Positions 3,341 through 18,201 of a DNA stretch of 21,284 nt are shown here, piece by piece (the stretch's first letter is position 1; each line of letters begins with the position of its first letter). The stretch spans positions 1 to 21,284 of the IMG/VR virus record IMGVR_UViG_3300033388_001836; one strand, given 5' to 3'. The notes under the pieces were generated by a model that saw only the letters and a list, made by a program, of their open reading frames with translations, was not told where the DNA came from and did not search any database. Position numbers and translations under genes: made by a program. This stretch comes from a virus.

Positions 3341-3790
3341 TTATTTTAATTTAACCCTTTGTATCTTACCACCGCAGTATAAGTTTCTTCTACATGCAAT
3401 TTTTACAGCCTCTAATGGTGTTGCACCGGCATCCAATGCCCCTTGTGCATAGTTAGCACCTGTTCCTAAGCAAACATACTCTTGCAATGCACGCTCCACA
3501 TCATCACTAGTTGAAACACTTATTGACCCCTCGTGGTATATAACCACTTGCCAATACTTTATTCTATCCTGTGCTTCATTTAGAGCCTCTTGAATATTAT
3601 TAGCTTTTTTTAATTCCTCTATAAATATTTTAGGAAATGATTTAGCCCCAGCACACCCAAACACAATTTGCTTACCAAAAAACCTAATTTTATAAATCTT
3701 TTTAGTATTCATGCTTGTTTTAAAGTCAAGGCATGATGTCATTTGACCATCAGCTATCATTTCATGTTTATTTGCTACTATTATTGTCAT
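3341..3790 (-). CDS. HslV/proteasome-like Ntn-hydrolase peptidase
   Basis: This 149-residue protein resembles HslV, the peptidase of the HslUV protease. It starts MTIIVA, so removal of Met would expose the catalytic Thr1. ADGQ at 13-16 (counting Met) matches GDGQ around HslV Asp17. NTKKIYKI from about 28 matches the Lys33 region, CAGAKS matches FAGG, and CLGTGANYAQGALDAG matches AIGSGGPYAQAA. It is somewhat shorter than bacterial HslV. No HslU-type ATPase is in the window, so it may use the host unfoldase, act alone, or have lost protease activity. The start overlaps the upstream stop (ATGA) and has GAGGAG in front. Substrate unknown. Confidence 0.85.
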   Translation of the reverse strand: MTIIVANKHEMIADGQMTSCLDFKTSMNTKKIYKIRFFGKQIVFGCAGAKSFPKIFIEELKKANNIQEALNEAQDRIKYWQVVIYHEGSISVSTSDDVERALQEYVCLGTGANYAQGALDAGATPLEAVKIACRRNLYCGGKIQRVKLK

Positions 3791-4261: not shown

Positions 4262-4513
4262 TTAGTTAATGTTTATTTTTACTTCGATATTTTCTTTACA
4301 CCTAACTATTTGATTTTTAATATAAAAATACTTTCCATCAATATTTTTAATACATCCCTTTTTTACTAACATCTGGAGTCTTTCGTGTATTGTGCCGACT
4401 GAATTTACATTCAAAGCTACTACCATCTGCATAAAGGTTAAGTTTAGTCCAAGTCTGTTTTGTTCTTTTATCAGTAAATATGTGGTATATTGTTTTTTTG
4501 TTAAATATTTCAT
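4262..4513 (-). CDS. LexA-like winged-helix DNA-binding protein (no peptidase domain)
   Basis: This 83-residue protein matches the LexA N-terminal DNA-binding fold. LTKKQYTTYLLIKEQ forms helix 1, FMQMVVALNVNS the first helix-turn part, VGTIHERLQMLVKKGCI the recognition helix, and the wing follows at about 57-66. The LexA self-cleavage domain is absent, so it could only be a stand-alone regulator or a replication/partition accessory. Its AGGAG site overlaps the last codons of the C-terminal frame of the broken upstream gene (stop at 4517). This indicates that translation was once coupled to that frame. Confidence 0.75.
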   Translation of the reverse strand: MKYLTKKQYTTYLLIKEQNRLGLNLTFMQMVVALNVNSVGTIHERLQMLVKKGCIKNIDGKYFYIKNQIVRCKENIEVKININ

Positions 4514-4623
4514 TTTTTAATCTCCTATCTTTTTTATATTTGGTAGTATAGATTTGTTTTCTATTAAATCCATCTCATCATATTTCTTTTCGTTTTCTAA
4601 AAATCTCTTCTCTAAGTCTTTTA

Positions 4624-4675
4624 GAATACTTGTTATATTCCTTTGGTATGAATACTTGTTATATTCCTTTGGTAT
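4624..4675. repeat. Perfect 26-bp tandem duplication
   Basis: Two identical copies (4624-4649 and 4650-4675) of a 26-base unit lie end to end. Because 26 is not a multiple of three, the extra copy shifts the reading frame of the gene at 4517-5091. Loss of one copy, or gain to four copies, would restore the frame. Both frames translate one repeat copy as YQRNITSI, which shows that the unit was originally single and coding. Confidence 0.97.
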
Positions 4676-5091
4676 CCATCCTTTCTCATAGAAGACCATA
4701 ACTCACTAATACCACCACAAAGCCTCAAAGCTATCTTATCTCTCTCTGTTAGGGATTTATTAAATTCTTTTTTATCGTAGCTGTCTAAGAAACTGCTTTT
4801 AAGATAATCCTTACATCTACTAAGAAACGATTGTAAATCAATCTGTTCTTGACTTTCAAGCTGTTTTATACTAGACTCTATCTTATATTTATAAAACATT
4901 TCAGGACTAGGATATTTATTGTAAAGTGTTTCTAATTTAGTGATATGATTACAGGCATTTTGAAATTGTTCATCTGTAAAATCATTCTTCATTAAGTTGT
5001 AAAGAAGTTTAGATTTCTTATTGTTAATCTCAATGTCTTTCAGTGTTATTATAGTTATTATACATTGATTAAATGTCTTTTCGTTTATCAT
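4633..5091 (-). CDS. Truncated open frame of the putative helicase loader
   Basis: This is the 152-residue product that the given sequence actually encodes from the ATG at 5091. The first about 144 residues are the normal protein; the last six or so (HTKGI and neighbours) come from reading the second 26-bp repeat copy out of frame. The lost part is a charged helical C-terminus of about 35 residues, preserved in another frame down to 4517. AGGAG precedes the start. Whether the shortened protein still functions cannot be told from sequence. Confidence 0.65.
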   Translation of the reverse strand: MINEKTFNQCIITIITLKDIEINNKKSKLLYNLMKNDFTDEQFQNACNHITKLETLYNKYPSPEMFYKYKIESSIKQLESQEQIDLQSFLSRCKDYLKSSFLDSYDKKEFNKSLTERDKIALRLCGGISELWSSMRKDGYQRNITSIHTKGI

Positions 5092-5747
5092 TATATTTCT
5101 CCTCTTTGTCTCATTTCTTCAATAACTTCTAAGTTCTTCTCAAGTATTGTCTTCTTCTGCTTTGATTGTTTTGGTTCATATAATCCTGTATATCCCGTTC
5201 CTATTGAGTGATCTACAACTTCTTGAGGATTACTAAATTTCTTTAATGCTTTGAGTTGATATTCCCATTGTTTAGTGTCTTTAAGGCTAGTTCTATAATC
5301 TAACCAATCAATAATAGGTTGTGTATAAATATCATCCTTTAACTTAGAAAGCCATTTTTCTTTTTTGTTTATTTTTTTAATAGGTTTAGTATGTTTAGTA
5401 GGTTCAGTATATTCCAGTATGGATTTTGACGGTTCAGTTGACAGTTCACTTGATGGTTCAGTCGATGGTTCAGAATCAACACCATTAAGTGTGTATATGT
5501 TTGATTCTCTTGAATTATTTAGAACTCTTTTCTTATCTACTTTTATAAGACCTTTTGATTCCAATTCTTTAATTGCCTTGATAACAGTATTTCTACTCCC
5601 AAGCCCACTAGTTTGTTGTAATAGTGTAATACCAGGAAAACAATTATTTTTCTTATGACAATACTCAGTCAATACGAATGCTAATAGTTTTGCCGATGAT
5701 GATAGTTCGCAATCTAATAGATTACTTCTCCATTGATAAATCCTCAT
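5091..5747 (-). CDS. Phage replication initiator/organiser (winged-helix, O-like)
   Basis: This 218-residue protein begins with a winged-helix domain at about 1-75 (LSSSAKLLAFVLTEYC, then ITLLQQTSGLGSRNTVIKAI, then ELESKGLIKVDKK), as in phage replication initiators of the HTH_36 type. A low-complexity linker (about 93-120, repeated EPST/EPSS/ELST units, then TEPTKHTKPIKK) joins it to a C-terminal segment (about 125-195) that would contact the helicase loader. The linker is encoded by a 12-bp iteron array, as in lambdoid initiators whose gene holds the origin. It overlaps the upstream 65-residue gene by 26 bases and ends in TAATG with the putative loader. Confidence 0.8.
   Translation of the reverse strand: MRIYQWRSNLLDCELSSSAKLLAFVLTEYCHKKNNCFPGITLLQQTSGLGSRNTVIKAIKELESKGLIKVDKKRVLNNSRESNIYTLNGVDSEPSTEPSSELSTEPSKSILEYTEPTKHTKPIKKINKKEKWLSKLKDDIYTQPIIDWLDYRTSLKDTKQWEYQLKALKKFSNPQEVVDHSIGTGYTGLYEPKQSKQKKTILEKNLEVIEEMRQRGEI
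5354..5474. other. Putative replication origin inside the initiator gene
   Basis: An almost pure A/T tract (5354-5382, only two G/C bases in 29) sits next to direct repeats of the GGTTCAGT core. There are three 9-bp-spaced units (5383, 5392, 5401; the first two degenerate) and a tandem array of four 12-bp units (5427-5474). Iterons beside an easily melted tract within the initiator gene is the arrangement of the phage lambda origin. The repeats also encode a low-complexity protein linker, so a coding-only explanation remains possible. Confidence 0.6.
5427..5474. repeat. Four tandem 12-bp iterons
   Basis: The units on the plus strand are TGACGGTTCAGT, TGACAGTTCACT, TGATGGTTCAGT and CGATGGTTCAGA, at exact 12-bp spacing. 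Adjacent units differ at one to four positions, some of which change the encoded residue, while most of the GTTCA core stays constant. Such conservation of the DNA core is what a protein-binding array would show. Confidence 0.85.
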
Positions 5748-11028: not shown

Positions 11029-12459
11029 ATGTATATAGTATATAAACCATATCCAGCACAAAAGCTATTACACGAATGCCCTTATGTAGAAGTTCTACTT
11101 GAAGGTAACCGTGGGGGTGGTAAGTCTGACGGTGCTATAATGGATTATCTAAGCGAAGTAGGTAACGGATGGAAAGAAGCTTGGCAAGGTATTATATTCA
11201 GAAGACAGATAAAAGATTTAAACGATCTAATAAAGAAATCAAAAAAATACATCGTAGCATTATGCCCAAATGCTATATTCAATATATCAACAAGAACTTG
11301 GAAATTCCCAGATGGAGAAACATTAACATTTCAACAAGCAGATAGAGATGACGACTATTGGAACTTTCACGGACACGAATACCCTTGGCAGTTCTTTGAT
11401 GAATTAACCTCTTGGGCTTCGCCTGACTTTTACTTATCAATGGCATCTTGCTGTCGTAGTGGAGTTAAAGGAATACCAAAGAGAAGACTATCAGCAACAA
11501 ATCCTTGGGGAGCAGGACACAGTTGGGTAAAGAAAAGATTTATAGACCCAGCACCTAGAATGAAACCAATTACTGATATAGTTATAAACCCAGTAACAGA
11601 CGAAGAAATAGAAATGACTAGAGTTGCTATAAACTGTCAGCTTAAAGACAACAAACACTTAATAGAGAACGACCCTGTATATATAGCACAACTTAATTCA
11701 ATTACAAACGAGGCTAAAAGAAAGGCTTGGATTGATGGAGATTGGAGTATTCAAGTGGGAGCATTCTTTGGAGATGTTTGGAGCGATAAAAACATAATTA
11801 AACCATTCACACCTCCTAAGCACTGGTTGAAGTTCTGTGGATTTGATTGGGGATATGCTAAACCGTTTGCTATGGGTTGGTTTTGTATATCAGATGGAAC
11901 AGAATTACCAGATGGTAGAATATACCCAGTAGGTTCTGTTATCAAGTATCGTGAGTATTATGGTTGTGAAGATAATGAAGAAGATGTAGGAGTTAGACTA
12001 ACAGTTGAAGAAATAGCTGATGGAATACACAATAGGGAAGACGAAGATATATCGTATAGAGTAGCAGACCCTGCATTATTCAAAGAAGATGGTGGAGAAT
12101 CACAAGCAGAAAGATTTCATAAAAAGGGGATAACCTTTGAAAGAGCAGATAATCAACGAGTAGCAGGTTGGGAGCTTATGAGAGAGCGAATGAAAGGGAC
12201 TGAGGTAGCTAAAGACAAATGGGTTTCACTTTACTATGTATTTGATACTTGCCTACACACAATAAGAACAATCCCTATACTACTACACGATGAAAAGAAA
12301 TTGGAAGACATCGACACAACTATGGAAGATCATATAGCTGATGCAGACAGATATGCTTTAAATTCAAGACCTTGGATTAAGAAGAATAATAGCAACCGTA
12401 AAAGTGACACTACATTCACTGATGCTTTAGACACAATACAAACAAAGGAGTTTTTCTAA
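11029..12459 (+). CDS. terL: Terminase large subunit
   Basis: This 476-residue packaging motor has an N-terminal ATPase and a C-terminal RNase-H-like nuclease. Walker A is GNRGGGKS (26-33), Walker B FFDEL with D124/E125 (122-126), and the coupling motif SATN is at 155-158. The nuclease acidic residues are D273 in GFDWGYAKP, D347 in YRVADPAL and D434/D438 in the MEDHIADADRY region. Length and order agree with podovirus terminases. It begins directly at the stop of the preceding gene and ends in TAATG with the next. Confidence 0.96.
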   Translation: MYIVYKPYPAQKLLHECPYVEVLLEGNRGGGKSDGAIMDYLSEVGNGWKEAWQGIIFRRQIKDLNDLIKKSKKYIVALCPNAIFNISTRTWKFPDGETLTFQQADRDDDYWNFHGHEYPWQFFDELTSWASPDFYLSMASCCRSGVKGIPKRRLSATNPWGAGHSWVKKRFIDPAPRMKPITDIVINPVTDEEIEMTRVAINCQLKDNKHLIENDPVYIAQLNSITNEAKRKAWIDGDWSIQVGAFFGDVWSDKNIIKPFTPPKHWLKFCGFDWGYAKPFAMGWFCISDGTELPDGRIYPVGSVIKYREYYGCEDNEEDVGVRLTVEEIADGIHNREDEDISYRVADPALFKEDGGESQAERFHKKGITFERADNQRVAGWELMRERMKGTEVAKDKWVSLYYVFDTCLHTIRTIPILLHDEKKLEDIDTTMEDHIADADRYALNSRPWIKKNNSNRKSDTTFTDALDTIQTKEFF

Positions 12460-17370: not shown

Positions 17371-18201
17371 ATGATATTTGTAATGATATACAGTTATAGA
17401 GATTTAGAACTTAGCAAGACAATAGAAGACTGTTTTTCTAAGGCTGACAACCCTAATGATATAGTTATTGGGTGTATAAACGCAGACAATGAAGAATATG
17501 TTTATAATGGGAAATATAATGTAAAAGTTAAGAATGTAGATTTTATGAACCGACACGGATGCGGATTTGGAATGTGGGAGATACAAAAAGAATTATATAA
17601 TAATGAAGAGTGGATATTAAGAGCTGCTCCTCATTCGAGATTTAAACAAGGATGGGATACTCATTATTTAAAGTATGCTAAAAAAGACACTGTTTTATGT
17701 TCAAGATGCTTAGAATATATGCCTGATGGCACACTAAGTAAAGATAAAAGAGAATACTCTGTTCCTGAATGTTTTAGTGATACTTTAGTTGTTAGATTAA
17801 AAAAGAAAAAGATTAAGAGTAAGAACAATTTCAAAGTTATCTTTATGCAAGCAGGTGGAATGTTTTGTCATAGAGATTGGATAGACAAGGTAGGATACGA
17901 CCCTCATATAGCAATGTGGGGAGAGGAAACAGATTTATCTATGAGAACTTGGTTAGCAGGTTTTAAAATGATTCACTTATGTTATCCACAGGTTTATCAC
18001 TTATGGCATAGGAGAAATAGAAAGAGCTTAGATGCAAGCCCTGAATTTGAAAAGATGAATAAAAAAGGTGTATTTAGAACTAAGATTAAACTAGAATTGA
18101 TTAACCATACTTCTCACAAAGAAGATTGGGATGAGTTTGGGTGTAATGGAGCTAAATATAGAAGACTACTAGAGAAGGAATTTCAAAATGACAATACTTA
18201 A
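17371..18201 (+). CDS. GT60-like (GlcNAc-transferase family) glycosyltransferase
   Basis: This 276-residue protein resembles Pfam GlcNAc (GT60) transferases: IFVMIYSYRDLELSKTIEDC at the start, CGFGMWEIQKELY (about 64-76), an RFKQGWDTHYL segment (90-100), QAGGMFCHRDW (160-170), DPHIAMWGEETDLSMRTWL (177-195) and a final H210/H213 (VYHLWHRR). The expected DxH metal-binding site is changed to A86-P87-H88. Position between capsid and tail genes is unusual; it could glycosylate a virion or host surface protein, or be inactive. AAAAAGGGTTT serves as the ribosome site, and its end overlaps the next gene by 14 bases. Confidence 0.8.
   Translation: MIFVMIYSYRDLELSKTIEDCFSKADNPNDIVIGCINADNEEYVYNGKYNVKVKNVDFMNRHGCGFGMWEIQKELYNNEEWILRAAPHSRFKQGWDTHYLKYAKKDTVLCSRCLEYMPDGTLSKDKREYSVPECFSDTLVVRLKKKKIKSKNNFKVIFMQAGGMFCHRDWIDKVGYDPHIAMWGEETDLSMRTWLAGFKMIHLCYPQVYHLWHRRNRKSLDASPEFEKMNKKGVFRTKIKLELINHTSHKEDWDEFGCNGAKYRRLLEKEFQNDNT

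Follow-up and report, generated by a model that had tools for sequence, protein, structure and literature searches.

The duplication and its surroundings

The DNA analysed here, in the following referred to as the window, is a whole virus record of 21,284 bases, derived from a metagenome and with a GC content of about 27–39%. Its early/replication half lies on the minus strand and its structural genes lie on the plus strand. Terminase and major head protein were recognized by profile matches (PHROG 979 and PHROG 9953, respectively), the portal gene was assigned by similarity to viral relatives together with its position. Inside a minus-strand gene of the replication operon two identical 26-mers are arranged head to tail. 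The copy nearest to the gene start occupies positions 4650–4675, the distal one positions 4624–4649, and both read ATACCAAAGGAATATAACAAGTATTC on the minus strand. Among the tandem repeats of the window this array scores highest (104, at 100% match), which bears out the perfect duplication reported in the preliminary description. For two adjoining identical 26-mers chance is ruled out. At a lag of 26 the window matches itself over exactly 26 bases and not one base further in either direction, and the microhomology at the edges of the unit amounts to 0 bases on both sides. A second exact tandem duplication with a period of 10–299 was not found anywhere in the window. When viral contigs were searched, an 18-base piece of the repeat matched four of them; the surroundings of these four matches are without similarity to the window.

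The split gene adjoins, on its upstream side, a gene for a phage O-like / HTH_36 replication initiator (5091–5747, minus strand; phrog_678, E = 2.2e-19; PF13730, E = 3.2e-10). Downstream follows a gene for a small LexA-type winged-helix protein (4262–4513, minus strand; PF01726, E = 1.7e-6). A helicase loader, or some other small protein of replication, would fit such a position. The name helicase loader, under which the gene had been introduced, is a guess from this position and found no support at the sequence level: searches in Pfam, PHROGs, NCBIfam and PDB sequences gave chance-level matches only, phages searched by tblastn yielded no relative, a Pfam scan with the joined 182-codon protein remained without a match, and the lambda P helicase loader profile PF06992 had no match in the window while its control in E. 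coli was matched. For the DUF6475 profile (PF20081) there was a match neither in the window nor in the control, and the Pfam scan was negative as well. The AlphaFold model computed for the 152-aa frame was of poor quality, with a mean pLDDT of 54, and was disregarded, as was a fold search with this model, which returned nothing (best E 0.75). With the lambda P-type phage helicase loaders the gene shares the location directly downstream of an O-like initiator gene and a mostly helical prediction; unlike them, it has no detectable similarity to any family searched.

The same operon also holds a gene for an HslV-like peptidase (3341–3790; phrog_1040, E = 1.6e-29), the distant relatives of which occur mainly in large phages of Gram-negative hosts.

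The reading frame and its cut-off tail

With the two copies as given, the frame that starts at ATG 5091, preceded by an AGGAG ribosome site, closes at a TAA at 4635–4633 (4633–5091, minus strand) and yields 152 codons ending in GYQRNITSIHTKGI-stop. A unit of 26 bases is not divisible by three, hence the duplication breaks the frame. When one copy was removed computationally, a gene of 182 codons resulted, whose stop codon TAG at 4519–4517 overlaps the AGGAG of the next gene (start at 4513). Without any copy the frame is also broken (153 aa). Arrays of three or four give 152 aa, as two do; hence, among zero to four copies, only a single copy encodes the long protein. The duplication would exchange the last approximately 35 residues for a five-residue tail. 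The frame shift, the 182-codon gene and the two stop positions claimed for this locus were all reproduced by the computed translation. The distance from the premature stop to the next start, put at about 120 bases before, is 119 bases, which is long for this operon though not unique. Gaps in this operon are mostly between -65 and +11, and 72, 89 and 120 are present, too; because a gap of 120 bases is found elsewhere in the operon, the spacing is weak evidence when taken alone.

The part of the gene that is cut off (4517–4623, minus strand) codes for KDLEKRF...KKIGD. It was evaluated by a codon model that contrasted in-frame with out-of-frame sequence of the remaining minus-strand genes, the split gene itself being excluded from the training. 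In the lost frame the 104 bases from 4520 to 4623 scored 18.8 bits. The two alternative frames gave 2.5 and 3.4 bits and are interrupted by 7 and 2 stops, whereas the lost frame has none. In-frame 102-base segments of other genes scored 13.1 bits on average (s.d. 3.8), and 0 of 330 out-of-frame control segments reached 18.8 bits. Because of this coding signal in the lost frame, together with the stop codon overlapping the next ribosome site, the 182-codon form with one copy is very likely the ancestor, and the idea of a single gene split by the duplication is supported. Furthermore, as the tail has retained its full coding signal and no stop has arisen in the lost frame, the break appears to be young.

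A mechanical open reading frame of 60 aa (4517–4699, minus strand; upstream sequence GGCTTTGTGGTGGTATTAGTGAGTT) holds the tail. Separate production of the tail from this frame is improbable, because a convincing ribosome site before its ATG at 4699 is missing. For gene calling this means that the annotated 152-aa and 60-aa frames should be regarded as pieces of one gene.

Search for relatives

Relatives of the split gene were not found among viral contigs queried with the 152-aa frame, among genome contigs queried with the joined 182-aa protein, in ten related viral records, or in all comparison loci including 80 portal relatives. An indirect search by way of the neighbours (O-like gene, capsid, terminase, methylase, HslV-like and portal genes) likewise led to no relative carrying the gene. 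It had been proposed that a BLAST of the joined protein should hit intact relatives; this comparison was run and intact relatives were not found, a result which neither confirms nor refutes the split gene. The only close relative found, L004, has amino acid identities of 86% for the terminase, 73% for the portal and 86% for the capsid protein, and is a 6.1-kb fragment which ends short of the split gene.

In L004 the gene corresponding to window position 12459 is only 33% identical, flanked by well conserved neighbours, and has therefore been replaced or is fast-evolving. Part of the DNA methylase gene (1231–1475) has 81% DNA identity to Edwardsiella phage vB_EtaM_ET-ABTNL-9; a megablast of the entire window against the phage collection gave no other match. 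This similarity suggests an exchange of the methylase.

Rarity of frame-breaking duplications

For comparison we used 1.22 Mb, nearly all of it viral, consisting of 50 kb of phage phi92 and of IMG/VR loci, some of which overlap. In this set nine further rows of exact tandem repeats have a unit of at least 13 bases; their units measure 15, 18 or 30 bp and are thus all divisible by three. Not one other exact tandem duplication with a unit of at least 13 and a length indivisible by three was present in the 1.22 Mb. Such a pattern would follow if duplications that break the frame of a gene are usually eliminated. The 26-base frame-breaking duplication is rare. Its rarity, together with the undiverged copies, fits a young event not yet eliminated by selection, or else an artefact of the assembly.

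Comparison with known duplications

Reversible intragenic sequence duplications are described for the pneumococcal capsule genes cap3A, cap8E and tts in two reports (PMC4243769, PMC4022640, citing Waite 2001, 2003). In these genes a short tandem duplication in a reading frame silences the gene and may later be lost. There, both states and the reversion were observed in culture, whereas in the window there is one assembled state of a phage gene. In the Burkholderia penA beta-lactamase gene two tandem duplications reverted at 9.3e-7 and 3.6e-5, and for the duplications TRs 4 to 11 the template had no bordering direct repeats (PMC4169377). These are new and measurably revertible tandem duplications in a coding region as well; however, they keep the frame and change the substrate range, whereas the 26-bp duplication breaks the frame. 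Like the cap3A and penA examples, the array in the window duplicates part of a reading frame exactly and in tandem, and with two copies the predicted product is altered, its frame ending at 4633. With simple-sequence contingency loci, which vary in phase by slipped-strand mispairing, it has in common that a change in copy number would shift the frame. Those loci consist of many copies of a short unit, unlike the two copies of one 26-base unit found here.

Origin of the duplication

We consider a recent spontaneous 26-bp tandem duplication in an ordinary 182-codon phage gene beside the O-like gene the best explanation, with a probability of roughly 60%. The result would be a loss- or change-of-function allele that was captured by the metagenome assembly. 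The identity of the copies suggests that the duplication is recent, and we infer that it was present in the reads, is revertible and has an effect on the phage. An exact tandem duplication, once present, can be lost by replication slippage. By analogy to the pneumococcal capsule and penA duplications the allele should be revertible in principle. Reversibility is a generic property of exact tandem duplications and therefore no sign of an evolved switch. Classic slippage duplications begin at short direct repeats. The one described here did not arise by the simplest slippage between such repeats, since its edges are without microhomology; it may belong to the type of duplication without flanking repeats, as in penA (PMC4169377). 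Besides the missing microhomology, what speaks against a recent duplication is that a broken gene as the population consensus would be surprising, should replication depend on it. In kind, the duplication is ordinary. If the allele is real, this uncultured phage provides a further case of a self-reversible knock-out caused by short tandem duplication.

The most serious alternative, with a substantial though clearly smaller chance of being correct, is an assembly error, either by joining two pieces with a 26-base overlap end to end or by a minor variant entering the consensus. The real phage would then possess one copy and the intact 182 codons. A self-match of exactly one unit without extension is what an unmerged overlap would leave behind, and the record is a metagenome-derived virus contig. 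Comparable frame-breaking duplications are absent from the 1.22 Mb compared, and next to the gene lies a replication gene on which selection should act. On the other hand, the comparison contigs are mostly of like origin and do not show the artefact. Furthermore, an ordinary short read can cover all 52 bp of the array, and a wrong copy number is therefore less likely. A recent mutation is favoured over an assembly error.

It is rather improbable that the gene works with two copies as it is, either because the 152-aa protein is functional or because a -1 ribosome shift or a restart at 4699 supplies the tail. The two frames overlap from 4699 to 4633, where a one-base backward shift would fuse them into approximately 190 residues, and the helices predicted by AlphaFold, at low confidence, lie before residue 138 and thus ahead of the cut. 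However, a slippery heptamer of the type X XXY YYZ was not found in the frame of the gene within the overlap, and ATG 4699 is without the AGGAG-like site that nearly all other genes have. Programmed -1 frameshifting and a separate start at 4699 were therefore both rejected. The strong coding signal of the tail, too, implies translation as part of the gene and argues against a functional 152-aa form.

The preliminary description had named a reversible switch of a replication gene, a recent mutation and an assembly error side by side. The latter two are likelier; the switch, possible as such, is unsupported, with two copies only and no relative carrying it. Here, the phage population would keep one- and two-copy forms, and slippage between them would turn a replication-linked protein on and off in its 182- and 152-aa versions. 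Exact tandem copies of a frame-breaking unit are a workable substrate for this. One copy alone, among zero to four, gives the long protein, and switching of genes by short duplications is known from pneumococcus and from penA (PMC4169377). Against a selected switch stand the single assembled state, the fact that no relative with the array was found and the lack of another such array in the window. Because no microhomology promotes the gain of the second copy, such a cycle would be strongly biased towards one direction. We regard such a switch as very unlikely; if a maintained switch of a replication protein were true, it would be a new use of this mechanism and unusual for a phage.

Least credible of all is a real duplication with one nearby base overlooked during sequencing or assembly; the true insertion would then measure 27 bases, add nine residues and keep the frame. 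Both frames would indeed be connected by a single-base difference in their overlap, and the other long exact tandem repeats of the comparison set all stay in frame, but the copies are exact, the register is exactly 26 and an extra error is required.

Other repeats

The linker of the O-like replication gene (5376–5473) contains imperfect in-frame repeats of 12 bp (four copies) and 18 bp, which encode a Ser/Thr-Glu-Pro-rich stretch and, unlike the 26-bp unit, keep the frame. Among the comparison loci, L023 carries at 17932–18058, near the end of this viral contig, a 30-bp tandem array with about three exact copies.
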